From contig NZ_CP042382.1 in assembly GCF_007954585.1 (NCBI RefSeq), forward strand, positions 2,604,001 through 2,668,000: 64,000 nt of DNA, given 5' to 3'. The position numbers and the translations under genes were made by a program. The notes beneath the pieces were generated by a model. It was not told the DNA's origin. It saw nothing but the letters and a program-made list of their open reading frames with translations, and ran no database searches. The stretch is from Pistricoccus aurantiacus (lineage in GTDB: Bacteria; Pseudomonadota; Gammaproteobacteria; Pseudomonadales; Halomonadaceae). Shown piece by piece: positions 1 through 52,758 of this stretch (position 1 is the first letter of the stretch; every line of letters starts with the position of its first letter).

Positions 1-1293
1 CCAGAGAAGACGAGAATCGAAGCTCTTGGCCGCCAGCATGGTCAGTATCACCACGGAGGCGAACGGCAGAATGGCCGAGCCGGGGCTCACCGTCATCAGG
101 TTGCCCGCGTTGACCAGGGCGCCAAGAATGGCTACCACGAAGATATCCACCATGGACCAGCGCCCGATCACATCCGCCATTCGATGCAGCCGGGTCCGTC
201 CAAGGGCGTGCATGTTCCTGCTGCGCGGCGCGATATAGCAGAGCCAGGAAAGGGCGATCAATTTCAGTACCGGCACCGTGATACTGGCGAACAAAATGAC
301 GATGGCCACCGGATAGGAGCCGCTCTCCCAGAGCTCCACCACGCCGGTGATGATAGTCGAAGGTGTGGTATGACCTAACCAGGTGGTATTCATGATGGGG
401 TAGACGTTGGCGGGAATGTACATGATCGCCGCCGCTATCAGCAGCGCCCAGGTACGCTGCAGGCTTTTGTGATAGCGCAGGTGCAAGGGCTCGCCGCAGC
501 GCAGGCAGTGGCCCTGTCCCTTGTCGTCGAGTCGGTTGACCAGGCCGCAGGTGGGGCAGCCCGCCAATCCTTGAGGCGCCGCCGGCTGCCCGATCCGGCA
601 ATTTTCAGGCGCCTGGGGTTCGCCGGTCAGGGAAAACCACATCCAGTCCGCGTCGATGGATTGAGTGGTTAAAAGCAGCAGAATAGTGAAGGCGCAAAAG
701 GCCCAGAATCCCAGATCCAGATCGATTTCCGCGAGTCCAGCCATCTTGATCAGACTGACCAGGGTGCCGATGATGAAGACATCCGCCATCATCCAGGGAT
801 TCATGTGTGCCAGCGAGCGGGCAATGCCGCAACTGAAGGCCATGGACTCGCCGCGCAGCAGACCGATATGCAGCCAGATGACCCCCAGCAGGTAGACGCC
901 GGGCAGCACCATGACGAACAACGCCACGGCGATGGCGATCAAGGGTTGATGAAAGCCCAGCAAGCTGGTGGCGGTCTGAGGGAGCTCGATGCGGTCGCCG
1001 AAGCCTTGGAAGTCGAAGCTGACAAAAGGGAAAATGATGGCGATGGTCAGGGCGATCAGCGCGCTGACGGCAAGCGCCATGCTGCGCTGGGCCGGCCAGT
1101 GGTGACGAGTGACCAGGGTATGATCGCAGCGTGGACAGTCGGCTTTCTCGCCGGCGTTCAGTGGCGGCAGCGCCACCAGCCAGTCGCATTCATGACAGGC
1201 TCGCAATCGGCGCCGCGTGGAGCGGGTTTCCGGCGATGCCATGGCAATGGAGTCGGTTGGCCGAGCGCGGTCGTCGTTATCGATCGGGGGCAA
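1..1293 (-). CDS. pqiA: Paraquat-inducible protein A (PqiA/LetA family), 3' end outside window
   Basis: The minus-strand frame stays open to base 1, giving 431 codons without a stop, so the C-terminus lies outside the window. The product has two zinc-ribbon-like CxxC pairs (CHEC...CPRC near the N-terminus, CPTC...CLRC in the middle). Each pair precedes a block of four or so membrane helices, which is the duplicated layout of PqiA/LetA proteins (E. coli PqiA is 417 aa, so little is missing). Family members are inner-membrane partners of MCE-type lipid transport proteins; the MCE partner PqiB would be expected just beyond base 1. I chose TTG at 1293 because AGGAAA lies 8-9 nt upstream. ATG at 1242 has no clear ribosome binding site, and ATG at 1362 is also in frame. 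Confidence 0.88.
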   Translation of the reverse strand, partial: MPPIDNDDRARPTDSIAMASPETRSTRRRLRACHECDWLVALPPLNAGEKADCPRCDHTLVTRHHWPAQRSMALAVSALIALTIAIIFPFVSFDFQGFGDRIELPQTATSLLGFHQPLIAIAVALFVMVLPGVYLLGVIWLHIGLLRGESMAFSCGIARSLAHMNPWMMADVFIIGTLVSLIKMAGLAEIDLDLGFWAFCAFTILLLLTTQSIDADWMWFSLTGEPQAPENCRIGQPAAPQGLAGCPTCGLVNRLDDKGQGHCLRCGEPLHLRYHKSLQRTWALLIAAAIMYIPANVYPIMNTTWLGHTTPSTIITGVVELWESGSYPVAIVILFASITVPVLKLIALSWLCYIAPRSRNMHALGRTRLHRMADVIGRWSMVDIFVVAILGALVNAGNLMTVSPGSAILPFASVVILTMLAAKSFDSRLLW

Positions 1294-49233: not shown

Positions 49234-50085
49234 TTATTGCGCAGCGTCTTTCCAGCCCGGTACCGCGGCGCCGTCGAATAGCTCCTCAGCTTTTTGCGCC
49301 ACCTCGTCGCTCTGATAGGCACTTACCAGTTGACGAATGGCTTCTCGTTCCTGGTCACCTTCCCGCACCACGATCAGGTTGACGTAAGGCGAATCGGGGC
49401 CTTCCTTGATCAAGGCATCGTCCAGGCTCAGGCCTGCCGGCTGAGCAAAGGTATTGTTGATGAAGGCCATGTCCACGTCCTGCAGCACTCTCGGCAGCTG
49501 GGCGGCTTCGATCTCGCGAAACTTGAAATTCCGCGGATTTTCGGCGATGTCGATGGGTGTGGCTTCGAGATTTTCCGGATCCTTGAGTTCGATCAGCCCC
49601 TCGTCGTGCATCAGGATCAGCGAGCGCCCCTCGTTGGAAGGATCGTTGGGCAGGGCGATGGTGGCGCCATCCGGCAAGTCCTCGATGCTGTCGTATTTTT
49701 CCGAATAGGCGCCGATCGGGTAGACGAAGGTGCGCCCGGCGATGGCGAAGTCGTAGCCGCGATCCTCCACCATGCTGACCATATAGGGTTCATGCTGGAA
49801 GGCGTTGGCATCCAGGCTGCCGTCCGCCAACGCAGCGTTGGGAGAGACATAGTCGGTGAACTCGACGATCTTCACGTCGAGGCCGTATTCGTCCTTGGCG
49901 CGGTTCGCCGCCACCTGCATGACTTCGGTTTCCGGCCCCGCCACGGTGCCGACCTTGAGGATCTGATCTTGCGCTTCCTGATCGCCGCCACAGCCGGCCA
50001 GCATCGCCGCGCTCAACAGACCCGCCGCGCCTAGCCAACGGACGGGGCTCAACAGGTTCTTGTCCACTAAACGTTTTATTGCCAT
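49234..50085 (-). CDS. metQ: Methionine ABC transporter substrate-binding lipoprotein MetQ
   Basis: A 283-aa lipoprotein of the NlpA/MetQ family. The lipobox is MLAGC (about Cys32). The binding domain has KVGTVAGPETEVMQVAA, the YVSPNAALADGSLDANAFQHEPYM segment and IALPNDPSNEGRSL, as expected for methionine-binding proteins. AAGGAGATTCG precedes ATG at 50085. It works with MetN and MetI encoded upstream in the same operon. Confidence 0.96.
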   Translation of the reverse strand: MAIKRLVDKNLLSPVRWLGAAGLLSAAMLAGCGGDQEAQDQILKVGTVAGPETEVMQVAANRAKDEYGLDVKIVEFTDYVSPNAALADGSLDANAFQHEPYMVSMVEDRGYDFAIAGRTFVYPIGAYSEKYDSIEDLPDGATIALPNDPSNEGRSLILMHDEGLIELKDPENLEATPIDIAENPRNFKFREIEAAQLPRVLQDVDMAFINNTFAQPAGLSLDDALIKEGPDSPYVNLIVVREGDQEREAIRQLVSAYQSDEVAQKAEELFDGAAVPGWKDAAQ

Positions 50086-50134
50086 ATCGAATCTCCTTGA
50101 ATGAATCACAACGAAAAGCGGTTTTTCGTGCCGG

Positions 50135-50788
50135 TCACTTATGATCGGCCTTGCGTACCAGATGATCGCCGATGCTTTGAAAGCCCTGCACCATGACCAC
50201 CAGAATCGCCACGGTGATCAGCATGACCAGCGGGTCGAAGCGGTTGTAACCGTAACGTATGCCCAGATCCCCCAGGCCGCCACCGCCCACGGCGCCGGCC
50301 ATGGCGGAATAGCTGACCAGGGTGACAACGGTGACGGTCAGGCCGGTGATGATGCCGCCACGGGCTTCCGGCAACAATACCTTGGTGATGATCTGATAAG
50401 GGGTGGCGCCCATGGACTGGGCCGCCTCGATCAGCCCTGGCGGCACTTCGTTCAGGGCGCCCTCCACCAGCCGCGCCACGAAGGGGATGGCGGCGATGGT
50501 CAAGGGCACCACCGCCGCGTTGATGCCAATGGAGCTGCCGACAATCAAGCGGGTGAAGGGAATGATCGCCACCATCAGGATGATGAACGGAATCGAGCGG
50601 CCCACGTTGGTGACGATGGCGAGTATCCTTTGCGTCAGCGGATGAGCGAGTATCTGCCGGGGCCGGGTCACGTACAGCAGTACGCCCAGAGGAACGCCAA
50701 ACAGGGCGGCAATGACACCGGACACGCCGACCATGTACAGGGTATCGATGGTCGCCTTGAAGATCAGTTCAAGCATCGCGTTTGACAT
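50135..50788 (-). CDS. metI: Methionine ABC transporter permease MetI
   Basis: A 217-aa permease with five membrane helices. The EAA loop is EVPPGLIEAAQSMGATPYQIITKVLLPEA, which contacts MetN. I chose ATG at 50788 with GGAGG about 9 nt upstream, overlapping the metN end by 20 bp; ATG at 50776 is an alternative. Length matches E. coli MetI (217 aa). Confidence 0.95.
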   Translation of the reverse strand: MSNAMLELIFKATIDTLYMVGVSGVIAALFGVPLGVLLYVTRPRQILAHPLTQRILAIVTNVGRSIPFIILMVAIIPFTRLIVGSSIGINAAVVPLTIAAIPFVARLVEGALNEVPPGLIEAAQSMGATPYQIITKVLLPEARGGIITGLTVTVVTLVSYSAMAGAVGGGGLGDLGIRYGYNRFDPLVMLITVAILVVMVQGFQSIGDHLVRKADHK

Positions 50789-51812
50789 GACCAAGCACCT
50801 CCACGTTGAGATCATGACGCTCGAGATAGGCAAGCGCCGCCCGGGTCTGCTCCTGATCGCCGATCAGTTCCGCGATCATCAGCCCCAGGGTGCGATCCTG
50901 GATCGACTCCACCTTGGCCTGCAGAATGCTGACCTCGATGCGGCAATCCCGGGTCAATCGAGAAATCAGCGGCGAGGCCACCGCGTCGCCGGAGAACGCC
51001 AGACGCACCACCGGATGATGTCGCGGGCTGGGCTCGGGTTCGAGACGTTCCACCAGCGCCTTGGGCGGCTCGAGTTCGAGAAAGTCATTGAGAAATTCCC
51101 GCCCCAACCGTGTGCGCGGCGAGGTAAAGAACTCGCCTACCTCGGCTTCCTCCACCAGCATGCCGTCGGAAATCAGCCCTACCCGATGGCAGATCGACTT
51201 GACCACTTCCATTTCATGGGTGATCAGCAAAATGGTCAGTCCCAGGCGCTCGTTGATGTCCTTGAGCAGCTCGAGAATCGAGCCGGTGGTCTGCGGATCC
51301 AGCGCCGAGGTGGCCTCGTCACACAGCAGCACCTTGGGGCGGCTGGCCAGGGCCCTGGCGATGGCGACCCGCTGCTTCTGACCGCCGGAAAGCTCCGCTG
51401 GATAGGTGCCGGTCTTGTCGGAAAGGCCGGTCAGTTCCAGCAGCGGCTTGACTCGCTCCTGAATCGCTGCCTTGCCCATGCCCATCAGTTCCAGAGGCAG
51501 GGCGATGTTGGCATAGACGGTGCGCGATGACAGCAGATTGAAATGCTGAAAGATCATGCCGATCTGATGACGAGCCTGATTGAGCGCCGGGCCGCTCAAG
51601 CGGGTGAGTTCCTGGCCATCCACCTGCACGCTGCCGCTGGTGGGACGCTCCAGCAGGTTGACGCAGCGAATCAAGGTCGATTTGCCGGCGCCGGAAAGGC
51701 CGATGACGCCATGAATGCTGCCTTGGGGGACTTCCAGGTCGATGTGCCTCAGCGCCTCGATGGCCTGCGCGCCACTGCCGTAAATCTTGGAGACGTTCTT
51801 GAGTCTGATCAT
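50769..51812 (-). CDS. metN: Methionine ABC transporter ATPase MetN
   Basis: A 347-aa ATPase with Walker A GLSGAGKSTL, signature ELSGGQKQRVAIARAL and Walker B VLLCDEATSALD. The C-terminal NIL domain (about residues 265-340) gives allosteric inhibition by bound methionine in this family. ATG at 51812 is used; the frame continues upstream through the leader only by chance. A SAM-II-like riboswitch and terminator sit in the leader. Confidence 0.96.
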   Translation of the reverse strand: MIRLKNVSKIYGSGAQAIEALRHIDLEVPQGSIHGVIGLSGAGKSTLIRCVNLLERPTSGSVQVDGQELTRLSGPALNQARHQIGMIFQHFNLLSSRTVYANIALPLELMGMGKAAIQERVKPLLELTGLSDKTGTYPAELSGGQKQRVAIARALASRPKVLLCDEATSALDPQTTGSILELLKDINERLGLTILLITHEMEVVKSICHRVGLISDGMLVEEAEVGEFFTSPRTRLGREFLNDFLELEPPKALVERLEPEPSPRHHPVVRLAFSGDAVASPLISRLTRDCRIEVSILQAKVESIQDRTLGLMIAELIGDQEQTRAALAYLERHDLNVEVLGHVKRDA

Positions 51813-51872
51813 GATGCTGGGATACCGCTCGGTGACGTGATATCGAAGTTTCCTCGAAAAAGCGGCGCGCAC

Positions 51873-51899
51873 GAAAAAGGCCACCCGAATGGGGTGGCC
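51873..51899 (-). terminator. Leader terminator in front of metN
   Basis: On the minus strand GGCCACCC and GGGTGGCC form an 8-bp perfect stem with a 5-nt loop (CATTC), followed by TTTTTC. It lies about 60 nt before the metN ATG and downstream of the metN promoter, so it must act as an attenuator or block transcription into metN conditionally. Confidence 0.88.
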
Positions 51900-51910
51900 T
51901 ATCGCGCTGG

Positions 51911-51998
51911 ACACACCCGTTTAGCAGCACTTCCCGCTTTGAATCGACTGTCGCGATCGATGCGAGGGCGCCCGCAAGCTGGGTTCAAATCAGCGCCT
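51911..51998 (-). ncRNA. SAM-II-like riboswitch in the metNIQ leader
   Basis: Read 5' to 3' on the minus strand: P1 arm GGCGC (51997-51993), then UGAUUUGAACCC, then CUUGC, and the P1 closing arm GCGCC (51971-51967). A 41-nt connector with a possible small hairpin (AUCGA/UCGAU) follows, then GCUAAA (51925-51920) and GGGU (51918-51915). P1 pairs perfectly, and ACCC (51984-51981) can form the pseudoknot with GGGU. GAUUU, CUUGC and GCUAAA are the conserved ligand-binding elements of SAM-II (and related SAM-V) aptamers. The position between promoter and terminator, ahead of a methionine importer, fits. I cannot run a covariance model. Confidence 0.78.
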
Positions 51999-52014
51999 TG
52001 TGTAAAGTGCCCTG

Positions 52015-52043
52015 ATATTAAGGATCGACCGCGGTACTGTCAA
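52015..52043 (-). promoter_or_regulatory. Consensus sigma70 promoter of metNIQ
   Basis: On the minus strand TTGACA (52043-52038) and TAATAT (52020-52015) are separated by exactly 17 bp, a near-ideal sigma70 promoter. Transcription should begin near 52008, about 10 nt before the riboswitch P1 stem. Confidence 0.85.
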
Positions 52044-52110
52044 CGCCGCGGCAGCGGACATTACGCGGTACACTATGACGGTTCTCGGCATCCGGCATTC
52101 AGGAGTCAGC

Positions 52111-52758
52111 ATGTTCACGGGTATCGTTCAGGGCACCGCACCGCTTTTGTCCATCGTCGACAAGGACGCCTTTCGTATCCACACCATCGAACTCGAGCCC
52201 GCGCGGCGAAAAGGGCTGGAAATCGGCGCCTCGGTGGCGCATAACGGCGTCTGCCTGACCGTGACCGGCATCGACGGCGGCCGGGTCAGCTTCGATCTGA
52301 TGCGCGAAACCCTGCGTCTGACCAACCTGGGTGAGCTCCGGGTCGGCGACCGTGTCAATATCGAGCGGGCCGCTCGTTTCGGCGACGAGATCGGCGGCCA
52401 TGCCATGTCCGGGCATGTGATCTGTACCGCGGCACTGACGAGTATCGAGGAGGCGCCGAACAACCGTCGTCTCTGGTTCAGGCTGCCCGGGAAGTTCGGG
52501 CGCTTTCTGTTCGACAAGGGCTATATTGGACTCGACGGTATCAGCCTGACCATCGGCGAGGTGCGGCGCGAGCAGCCTCGGAACAGCGAAGTCGATGCGC
52601 CGGTGACTTTCTGCGTCGACCTGATTCCGGAAACCCTGGCGCGCACCACCCTGGGCGACCGGCGAATCGGCGACCGGGTCAATATCGAGATCGATCCGCA
52701 GACCCAAGCGATCGTCGAGACCGTCGAACGTGTATTGGCATCGCGTGCCGTGATCTAG
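52111..52758 (+). CDS. ribE: Riboflavin synthase alpha chain
   Basis: A 215-aa enzyme joining two 6,7-dimethyl-8-ribityllumazine molecules to form riboflavin. It has two lumazine-binding barrels: [10 protein letters not shown] at the N-terminus, [11 protein letters not shown] and [12 protein letters not shown] in repeat 1, [10 protein letters not shown] and the ETLARTTLG segment in repeat 2. ATG at 52111 is used. It is divergent from metN. I see no FMN riboswitch ahead of it. Flavin supply would serve the Rnf flavoproteins, but no regulatory link is visible. Confidence 0.95.

Follow-up and report, generated by a model that had tools for sequence, protein, structure and literature searches.

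Which sensor controls methionine import in Pistricoccus aurantiacus is the question raised by the leader upstream of its metNIQ genes, which lies on the minus strand of a 64,000-nucleotide stretch of the genome (hereafter the window; positions are counted from its first nucleotide). In E. coli, MetJ is the protein sensor of S-adenosylmethionine (SAM). No match to MetJ was found in this genome, with E. coli matched as the positive control, and its absence leaves room for an RNA sensor. An initial annotation had indeed read the leader as a SAM-II switch turning off methionine import when SAM is high. The genes downstream of it are as follows.

50769-51812, minus strand: metN, methionine ABC transporter ATP-binding protein (best NCBIfam match TIGR02314)
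50135-50833, minus strand: metI, permease (ORF as listed; NF008049)
49234-50109, minus strand: metQ, substrate-binding lipoprotein (ORF as listed; NF008285, TIGR00363)

MetN scored 473.9 bits against TIGR02314, under the cut-off of 499.7, and MetI scored 257.4 bits against NF008049, above the cut-off of 212; the true start of metI probably lies further in than that of the listed ORF. The best match of MetQ was NF008285 (306.5 bits, below the cut-off of 374), and MetQ passed the MetQ/NlpA family model TIGR00363 (294.9 bits; cut-off, 228.85). On the other side of the leader is a divergent ORF (52075-52758, plus strand), which we take to be riboflavin-synthase-like.

On the minus strand, a promoter (52043-52015), the aptamer (51997-51915) and a terminator (51900-51874) precede metN, metI and metQ in this order.

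52038-52043, minus strand: promoter -35 hexamer TTGACA (from the sequence)
52015-52020, minus strand: promoter -10 hexamer TAATAT, after a spacer of 17 nt (from the sequence)
51874-51900, minus strand: intrinsic terminator hairpin and U tract (stem 51900-51878, then TTTT)

The sigma-70-like promoter hexamers have 10 of 12 consensus matches and, like P1, GAUUUG, CUUGC, GCUAAA, ACCC/GGGU and the metN that follows, stand on the minus strand just where the initial annotation had placed them. Its terminator stem and the following TTTT are also in place, with nine pairs when the outer A-U is counted instead of the 8 bp it had given. Between 49000 and 53000 of the window, promoter-like and terminator-like matches are barely above chance (2 vs 1.2 expected and 6 vs 2.9 expected, respectively) and hence near chance on their own, but both elements recur in relatives: a TTGAC-17..20-TAnnnT promoter is present in 94 and a recognised terminator in 91 of 95 Halomonadaceae leaders (the window's own counted in both). 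This 95-sequence set leaves out the repeat loci L033, L035, L036, L039, L040, L041 and L056, and it leans to good matches because many of its loci, including most of L031-L060, come from stronger matches of a model (R1) trained on leaders including that of the window. Four Halomonadaceae metN leaders (L022, L023, L024 and L176) carry the aptamer without a recognised terminator and may use another platform.

A DNA similarity search of 58 genomes recovered the leader from 28, among them the genome of the window, and all 28 are Halomonadaceae. One, G003 (L028), was dropped because it shares only the terminator hairpin; the remaining 27 leaders all carry the aptamer core, and L029 and L030 belong to leaders already counted, as second fragments of those in L025 and L021. 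Downstream of all 27 (the window's own counted) lies metN, which starts 179 nt from GAUUUG in the window. In the larger set, metN follows GATTTG by 132-267 nt in 94 of the 95 leaders, and the sequence of the 95th covers only 380 bases after the motif. A plasmid similarity search returned eight records, seven matching in the metN stretch and one, from Cupriavidus, elsewhere in the query.

Read 5' to 3' on the minus strand, the aptamer comprises these elements.

51992-51997, minus strand: P1 5' strand GGCGCU (sequence, pair counts)
51986-51991, minus strand: GAUUUG, expected third strand of the SAM-binding triplex (conservation; matched to SAM-V U8-U10)
51981-51984, minus strand: P2 pseudoknot 5' strand ACCC (sequence, pair counts)
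51974-51978, minus strand: core strand CUUGC (sequence, conservation)
51967-51972, minus strand: P1 3' strand GGCGCC (sequence, pair counts)
51933-51966, minus strand: P3 hairpin flush after P1, base CUCGC/GCGGG (linker folds, pair counts)
51926-51932, minus strand: A-rich strand AAGUGCU after P3, at the position of the SAM-V A-minor strand (sequence; comparison with the description in PMC6061858)
51920-51925, minus strand: core strand GCUAAA (motif count, conservation)
51915-51918, minus strand: P2 pseudoknot 3' strand GGGU, common to the antiterminator (sequence, pair counts, folds)

The P3 hairpin (51966-51933) and a second pairing partner of GGGU, which gives an antiterminator, go beyond the initial annotation. 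The pattern GATTTGN{5,8}TTGCN{30,60}GCTAAA matched once in the 64-kb window and never in 100 dinucleotide-preserving shuffles. GAUUUG, UUGC and GCUAAA are present in all 87 distinct Halomonadaceae leaders (a set chosen by model matches), so that the core strands on whose conservation among relatives the earlier reading had been staked are kept, with UUGC as the shared part of CUUGC. AUUGC, whose A matches SAM-V A18 in position, occurs in 71 of the 87 distinct sequences, the window having CUUGC; after P3, 74 of the 87 have AAGUGCA and the others close variants. In alignment A3 (95 leaders, 87 distinct), whose fit to a model that includes P1 and P3 favours both helices, P1 is paired in 99.4% of cells, with two-sided changes at two of its six pairs, and the pseudoknot in 92.9%, with such changes at two of five. 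For P1, pseudoknot and P3 together, 153 cells show two-sided changes against 34.4 in shuffles, a value reached by none of 500 shuffles, and pairing across the 87 sequences falls to 40-51% when the 3' partners are slid. P2 has only four pairs in the window, and across the 87 sequences its two outer column pairs fail to form in 19 and 12. The metN leaders of relatives, which the initial annotation had suggested aligning, thus do carry compensatory changes in P1 and the pseudoknot, and a chance resemblance is ruled out by this covariation and the shuffle count (0/100).

SAM contacts have been described for SAM-V, with U8-U10 as the third strand, and called very similar in SAM-II (PMC6061858). By our own mapping, none of the 87 distinct sequences varies at the corresponding positions, namely the U's of GAUUUG, then UUG and UAAA. 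Ligand-switched variants exist for SAM-I (PMC10853860), and a SAM-II-like shape might likewise sense another ligand such as SAH or methionine, comparable to the spermidine-sensing SAM-I variants. Given the invariant contacts and a methionine importer as the target, we regard this as very unlikely and infer SAM to be the ligand.

At the gathering threshold, Rfam gave no match in the window. In a sensitive scan, RF00521 (SAM_alpha) scored 15.9 bits over model positions 10-44 only, below its cut-off of 36, which is a detection threshold and not a structural criterion; the likely reason is the insertion of P3 between P1 and GCUAAA. Alone, this shortfall would count against SAM-II, but two relatives with the same gene pass: the P3-less metN leaders L027 (47.8 bits) and L025 (36.9 bits), which share promoter, core and terminator. 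The class assignment is therefore independent of the model built here, and membership of the SAM-II class is established through these relatives. Among the 18 of the 27 leaders that were scanned, RF00521 matched six at E up to 1, two of them over the cut-off; all six have short linkers, and none of the 12 long-linker leaders was matched. RF01826 (SAM-V) had no match at E up to 10 in 51700-52200 of the window, nor at E up to 1 in the 18 relatives, where its filters may lose weak matches. Support from the Rfam models to which the initial annotation had pointed hence came for SAM-II, through two relatives, and not from the window itself. SAM-II long loops was rejected as the true class, with no match of RF01726 in the window or the 18 relatives, and sub-threshold matches to Phe_leader, ctRNA_p42d and isrD were rejected because they rest on the terminator hairpin. 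Supported by the scores of L027 and L025, the core in 87 of 87 sequences, the compensatory changes and metN in 94 of 95 leaders, the SAM-II reading holds. Judged from sequence, the metNIQ leader is well supported in structure as a SAM-II-type riboswitch that carries P3 and escapes the standard model.

When linkers were folded alone, 80 of 81 distinct long linkers formed a hairpin closing at the P1 boundary (criterion, one closing pair at the boundary), compared with 9.4 expected from shuffles. In A3 (87 distinct sequences), P3 is paired in 90.0% of cells and has two-sided changes at seven of seven scored pairs. A structure-free MAFFT alignment of the first 27 leaders agrees, with P3 80.4% paired and two-sided changes at seven of seven pairs, and none of 500 shuffles reaches the observed value for the whole structure. 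Six distinct short-linker relatives with the same core are without P3, indicating that P3 varies within the SAM-II class. A pattern scan for long linkers yielded at least 118 loci with 106 distinct linkers among the matches listed; in 95 of these linkers, P3 is flush and has three or more consecutive pairs, against 15.8 expected, and since the pattern requires a long linker, the frequency of P3 among all SAM-II is not readable from this count. Among the same listed matches, P3 is flush in 69 of 78 distinct linkers that are without the halomonad GGGTGTG tail. P3 is not confined to halomonads but is a general option of SAM-II in beta- and gammaproteobacteria.

With SAM-II (RF00521), the leader shares P1, GAUUUG, (C/A)UUGC, GCUAAA, an H-type pseudoknot, a promoter upstream, a terminator downstream and a methionine gene as target; it differs in its target metNIQ and in having P3, which varies in length and sequence, between P1 and the A-rich strand. 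The habit of SAM-II to occur with promoter and terminator was described by Corbino 2005 (PMC1273637). P3 is stated to be absent in SAM-II (PMC6061858); this absence is a described difference between SAM-II and SAM-V (Huang and Lilley 2018), not a binding criterion, and the metNIQ leader has P3. SAM-V (RF01826) has the same core, corresponding ligand contacts and P3 directly after P1, and its 3-bp P3 is followed by an A-rich strand whose adenines face P1 (PMC6061858). A hairpin at the SAM-V P3 position, together with AUUGC in 71 of 87 sequences (A at the place of A18, with CUUGC in the window), might suggest that the leader is a SAM-V riboswitch. We hold this to be extremely unlikely, since RF01826 matches neither the window nor the 18 relatives, whereas RF00521 matches six of those 18, and since P1 comprises 6 bp and a terminator serves as the platform. 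SAM-V acts on translation with a P3 of 3 bp, whereas P3 is usually longer here; the SAM-V arrangement of a pseudoknot over the Shine-Dalgarno sequence is not found in the window, where the terminator stands between them. Our assignment to SAM-II is thereby retained.

How SAM-II binding could be coupled to termination is suggested by two further elements.

51909-51918, minus strand: antiterminator 5' strand GGGUGUGUCC (motif in relatives, predicted folds)
51892-51899, minus strand: GGCCACCC, terminator 5' arm and antiterminator 3' strand (sequence, folds)

GGGU can pair with either of two mutually exclusive partners, the aptamer's ACCC or the CACCC of the terminator 5' arm. In 90 of the 95 Halomonadaceae leaders, GGGUGUGUCC occurs along with a downstream complement, and GGGTGTGTCC is likewise found in 90 of 95. 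In the proposed mechanism, transcription would start a few bases upstream of P1, and the nascent aptamer, formed by P1, the adjoining P3 (which may stack on P1) and the GAUUUG/CUUGC/GCUAAA strands, could bind SAM. With SAM bound, GGGU would be kept in the ACCC:GGGU pseudoknot, leaving the GGCCACCC arm free, so that the terminator would form and RNA polymerase would stop before metN. When SAM is absent, GGGUGUGUCC would pair with GGCCACCC, the terminator would not form and metNIQ would be transcribed. The metNIQ leader is thus very probably a SAM-II-class riboswitch by which high SAM switches methionine import off through premature transcription termination. Likewise, termination on SAM binding has been proposed for the metZ SAM-II of S. 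meliloti; in support, an sRNA whose size fits reaches higher levels in rich medium (PMC9373788). That element is alphaproteobacterial, stands before metZ and is described without mention of P3 in the passages of PMC9373788 used here.

With five leaders without the antiterminator motif and seven duplicates set aside from the 95, the fold predicted up to the terminator 5' arm has the antiterminator in 78 of the remaining 83 distinct leaders, and P1, P3 and antiterminator occur together in the predicted fold of 68 of 79 long leaders. With the terminator 3' arm added, all 83 predicted folds form the terminator. The window is not among the 78; unlike in most relatives, its predicted ligand-free, pseudoknot-free fold favours another pairing, of the P1 5' strand with CAGCGC (-36.6 vs -29.9 kcal/mol for P1, P3 and antiterminator), and its terminator far exceeds its antiterminator in stability (-17.5 vs -9.0 kcal/mol). 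The antiterminator missing from this fold, the difference in stability and the accumulation of terminated S. meliloti SAM-II leaders as sRNAs (PMC9373788) would all suit a terminator that works whatever the ligand, the leader being mainly a constitutive attenuator or a source of small RNA. Such a terminator would need no conserved ligand pocket, however, and the joint conservation of GGGUGUGUCC with its complement (90/95 leaders) and the antiterminator in the predicted folds of 78 of 83 distinct leaders also argue against this possibility, which we consider highly improbable. GGGUG and CACCC hardly vary, and covariation therefore speaks neither for nor against the antiterminator. Positions 51908-51900 of the window, between the antiterminator strands, are strongly conserved in relatives though the pairing model does not require it; GTGTCCAGCGTTGA is found between these strands in 23 of the 27 first leaders and 88 of the larger set of 95, and the window has AGCGCGATA instead.

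It is similarly doubtful in the extreme that the leader acts on metN translation rather than transcription, as in SAM-V and metX SAM-II. Although this would fit L176 and the three P3-less leaders L022-L024, in which no terminator was recognised, 91 of 95 leaders do have one; in the window, the 9-pair terminator with its U tract lies between aptamer and metN, and with the metN start 179 nt from GAUUUG, the ribosome site lies outside the pseudoknot. We therefore keep control by transcription termination as the preferred mechanism.

To what extent the leader is shared by the family was assessed with R1, which matches the window by construction and whose E-values are rough and come without negative-control genomes. 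R1 matched 234 of 275 Halomonadaceae genomes and 20 of 24 genera (any match, E up to 0.01), a number that includes weak or partial matches and places other than the metN leader (G113, G115 and G092); 41 of the 275 genomes had no R1 match at E up to 0.01. RF00521 was over its cut-off in nine of the 275 genomes and in none of the other 266, and in at least four of the nine (G075, G108, G152 and G279) its match lies elsewhere than the best match of R1. Among the matches listed, the same leader is present in Halomonas, Billgrantia, Onishia, Chromohalobacter, Modicisalibacter and Aidingimonas.

The GTDB class Gammaproteobacteria includes the Betaproteobacteria. In a sample at class level (n = 369), R1 matched 177 at E up to 0.01, and RF00521 matched 30 over the cut-off and 94 at E up to 1e-4, thresholds that differ from that of R1. 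Among the matches listed, SAM-II cores with P3 precede metX in Limnohabitans, Curvibacter and Undibacterium, and metZ in Methyloversatilis. The downstream proteins of 15 of 16 loci outside Halomonadaceae were identified as metX (L185, L190, L214, L229), metZ (L091, L097, L200, L210, L251), metH (L186, L201) or metN (L095, L096, L098 and L101, from other gammaproteobacterial families), while that of the tandem locus L107 had no match. The P3 hairpin was recognised by folding in L095 and L098 and by eye in L096; L101 is without P3, and the hairpin of L097 does not begin flush.

SAM-II has been known from Alphaproteobacteria, with few occurrences elsewhere (PMC1273637), and described as sporadic in Gammaproteobacteria, with terminators frequent in alpha- and betaproteobacteria (PMC2258182). 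In a survey of about 200 proteobacterial genomes, SAM_alpha was reported only in Rhizobiales and Rhodobacterales; Oceanospirillales appear in its table with MetR and SahR but not SAM_alpha, and the SAM_alpha targets that it names in the portions consulted do not include metNIQ (PMC4239095). The open-licence literature returned no report of a SAM-II riboswitch with metN, or of a SAM or SAM-II riboswitch in Halomonas, other than a review co-mentioning Halomonas, riboswitch and S-adenosylmethionine. The betaproteobacterial metXZ RNA element of Leyn 2014, which precedes metX and metZ, is likewise described as a pseudoknot with a terminator and perhaps an antiterminator, though its authors did not, in the parts of the paper drawn on here, equate it with SAM-II (PMC4239095). 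L185, L190, L214, L229 and L200 are betaproteobacterial SAM-II cores with P3, and this orphan element may be SAM-II.

Tandem SAM-II switches have already been reported, with 44 examples (PMC9481103). Among the loci found here, L117, L122-L127, L129, L133-L137 and L110 are tandem SAM-II-like elements, in which the first core is normal and apparently has a promoter and a terminator, and a second copy about 100-130 nt downstream reads GATTTAA, not GATTTG. The altered core of this second copy raises the question of an altered ligand. The tandems L107, L128 and L130 retain GATTTG in the second copy. In the tandems L300-L305, the long ORFs scanned downstream are not methionine genes, and five had no Pfam match; downstream of L305 are a MoxR-like AAA ATPase and a DUF2201_N protein, and the phosphorothioation genes SspA, SspB and SspD lie about 3-8 kb downstream in the L300 region.

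The presence of P3 here contradicts the statement that SAM-II lacks it and makes the relation between SAM-II and SAM-V directly testable. On balance, we favour the view that P3-bearing SAM-II is a widespread, unrecognised architecture within one SAM-II/SAM-V continuum, in which the same pseudoknot core carries an optional P3 under P1 that has been grown or shrunk freely; it would be a standing control of methionine import in Halomonadaceae, mostly missed by Rfam, and would probably explain part of the betaproteobacterial orphan metXZ element. The two exclusive partners of GGGU offer a simple model of a transcription-terminating SAM-II switch, and adding P3 to the Rfam seed would allow leaders to be annotated in more than 200 genomes of this sample alone. 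For Halomonadaceae, in which SAM-II is nearly invisible to the standard model (9/275 genomes over its cut-off vs 234/275 matched by R1), the leader supplies a likely regulator of metNIQ.
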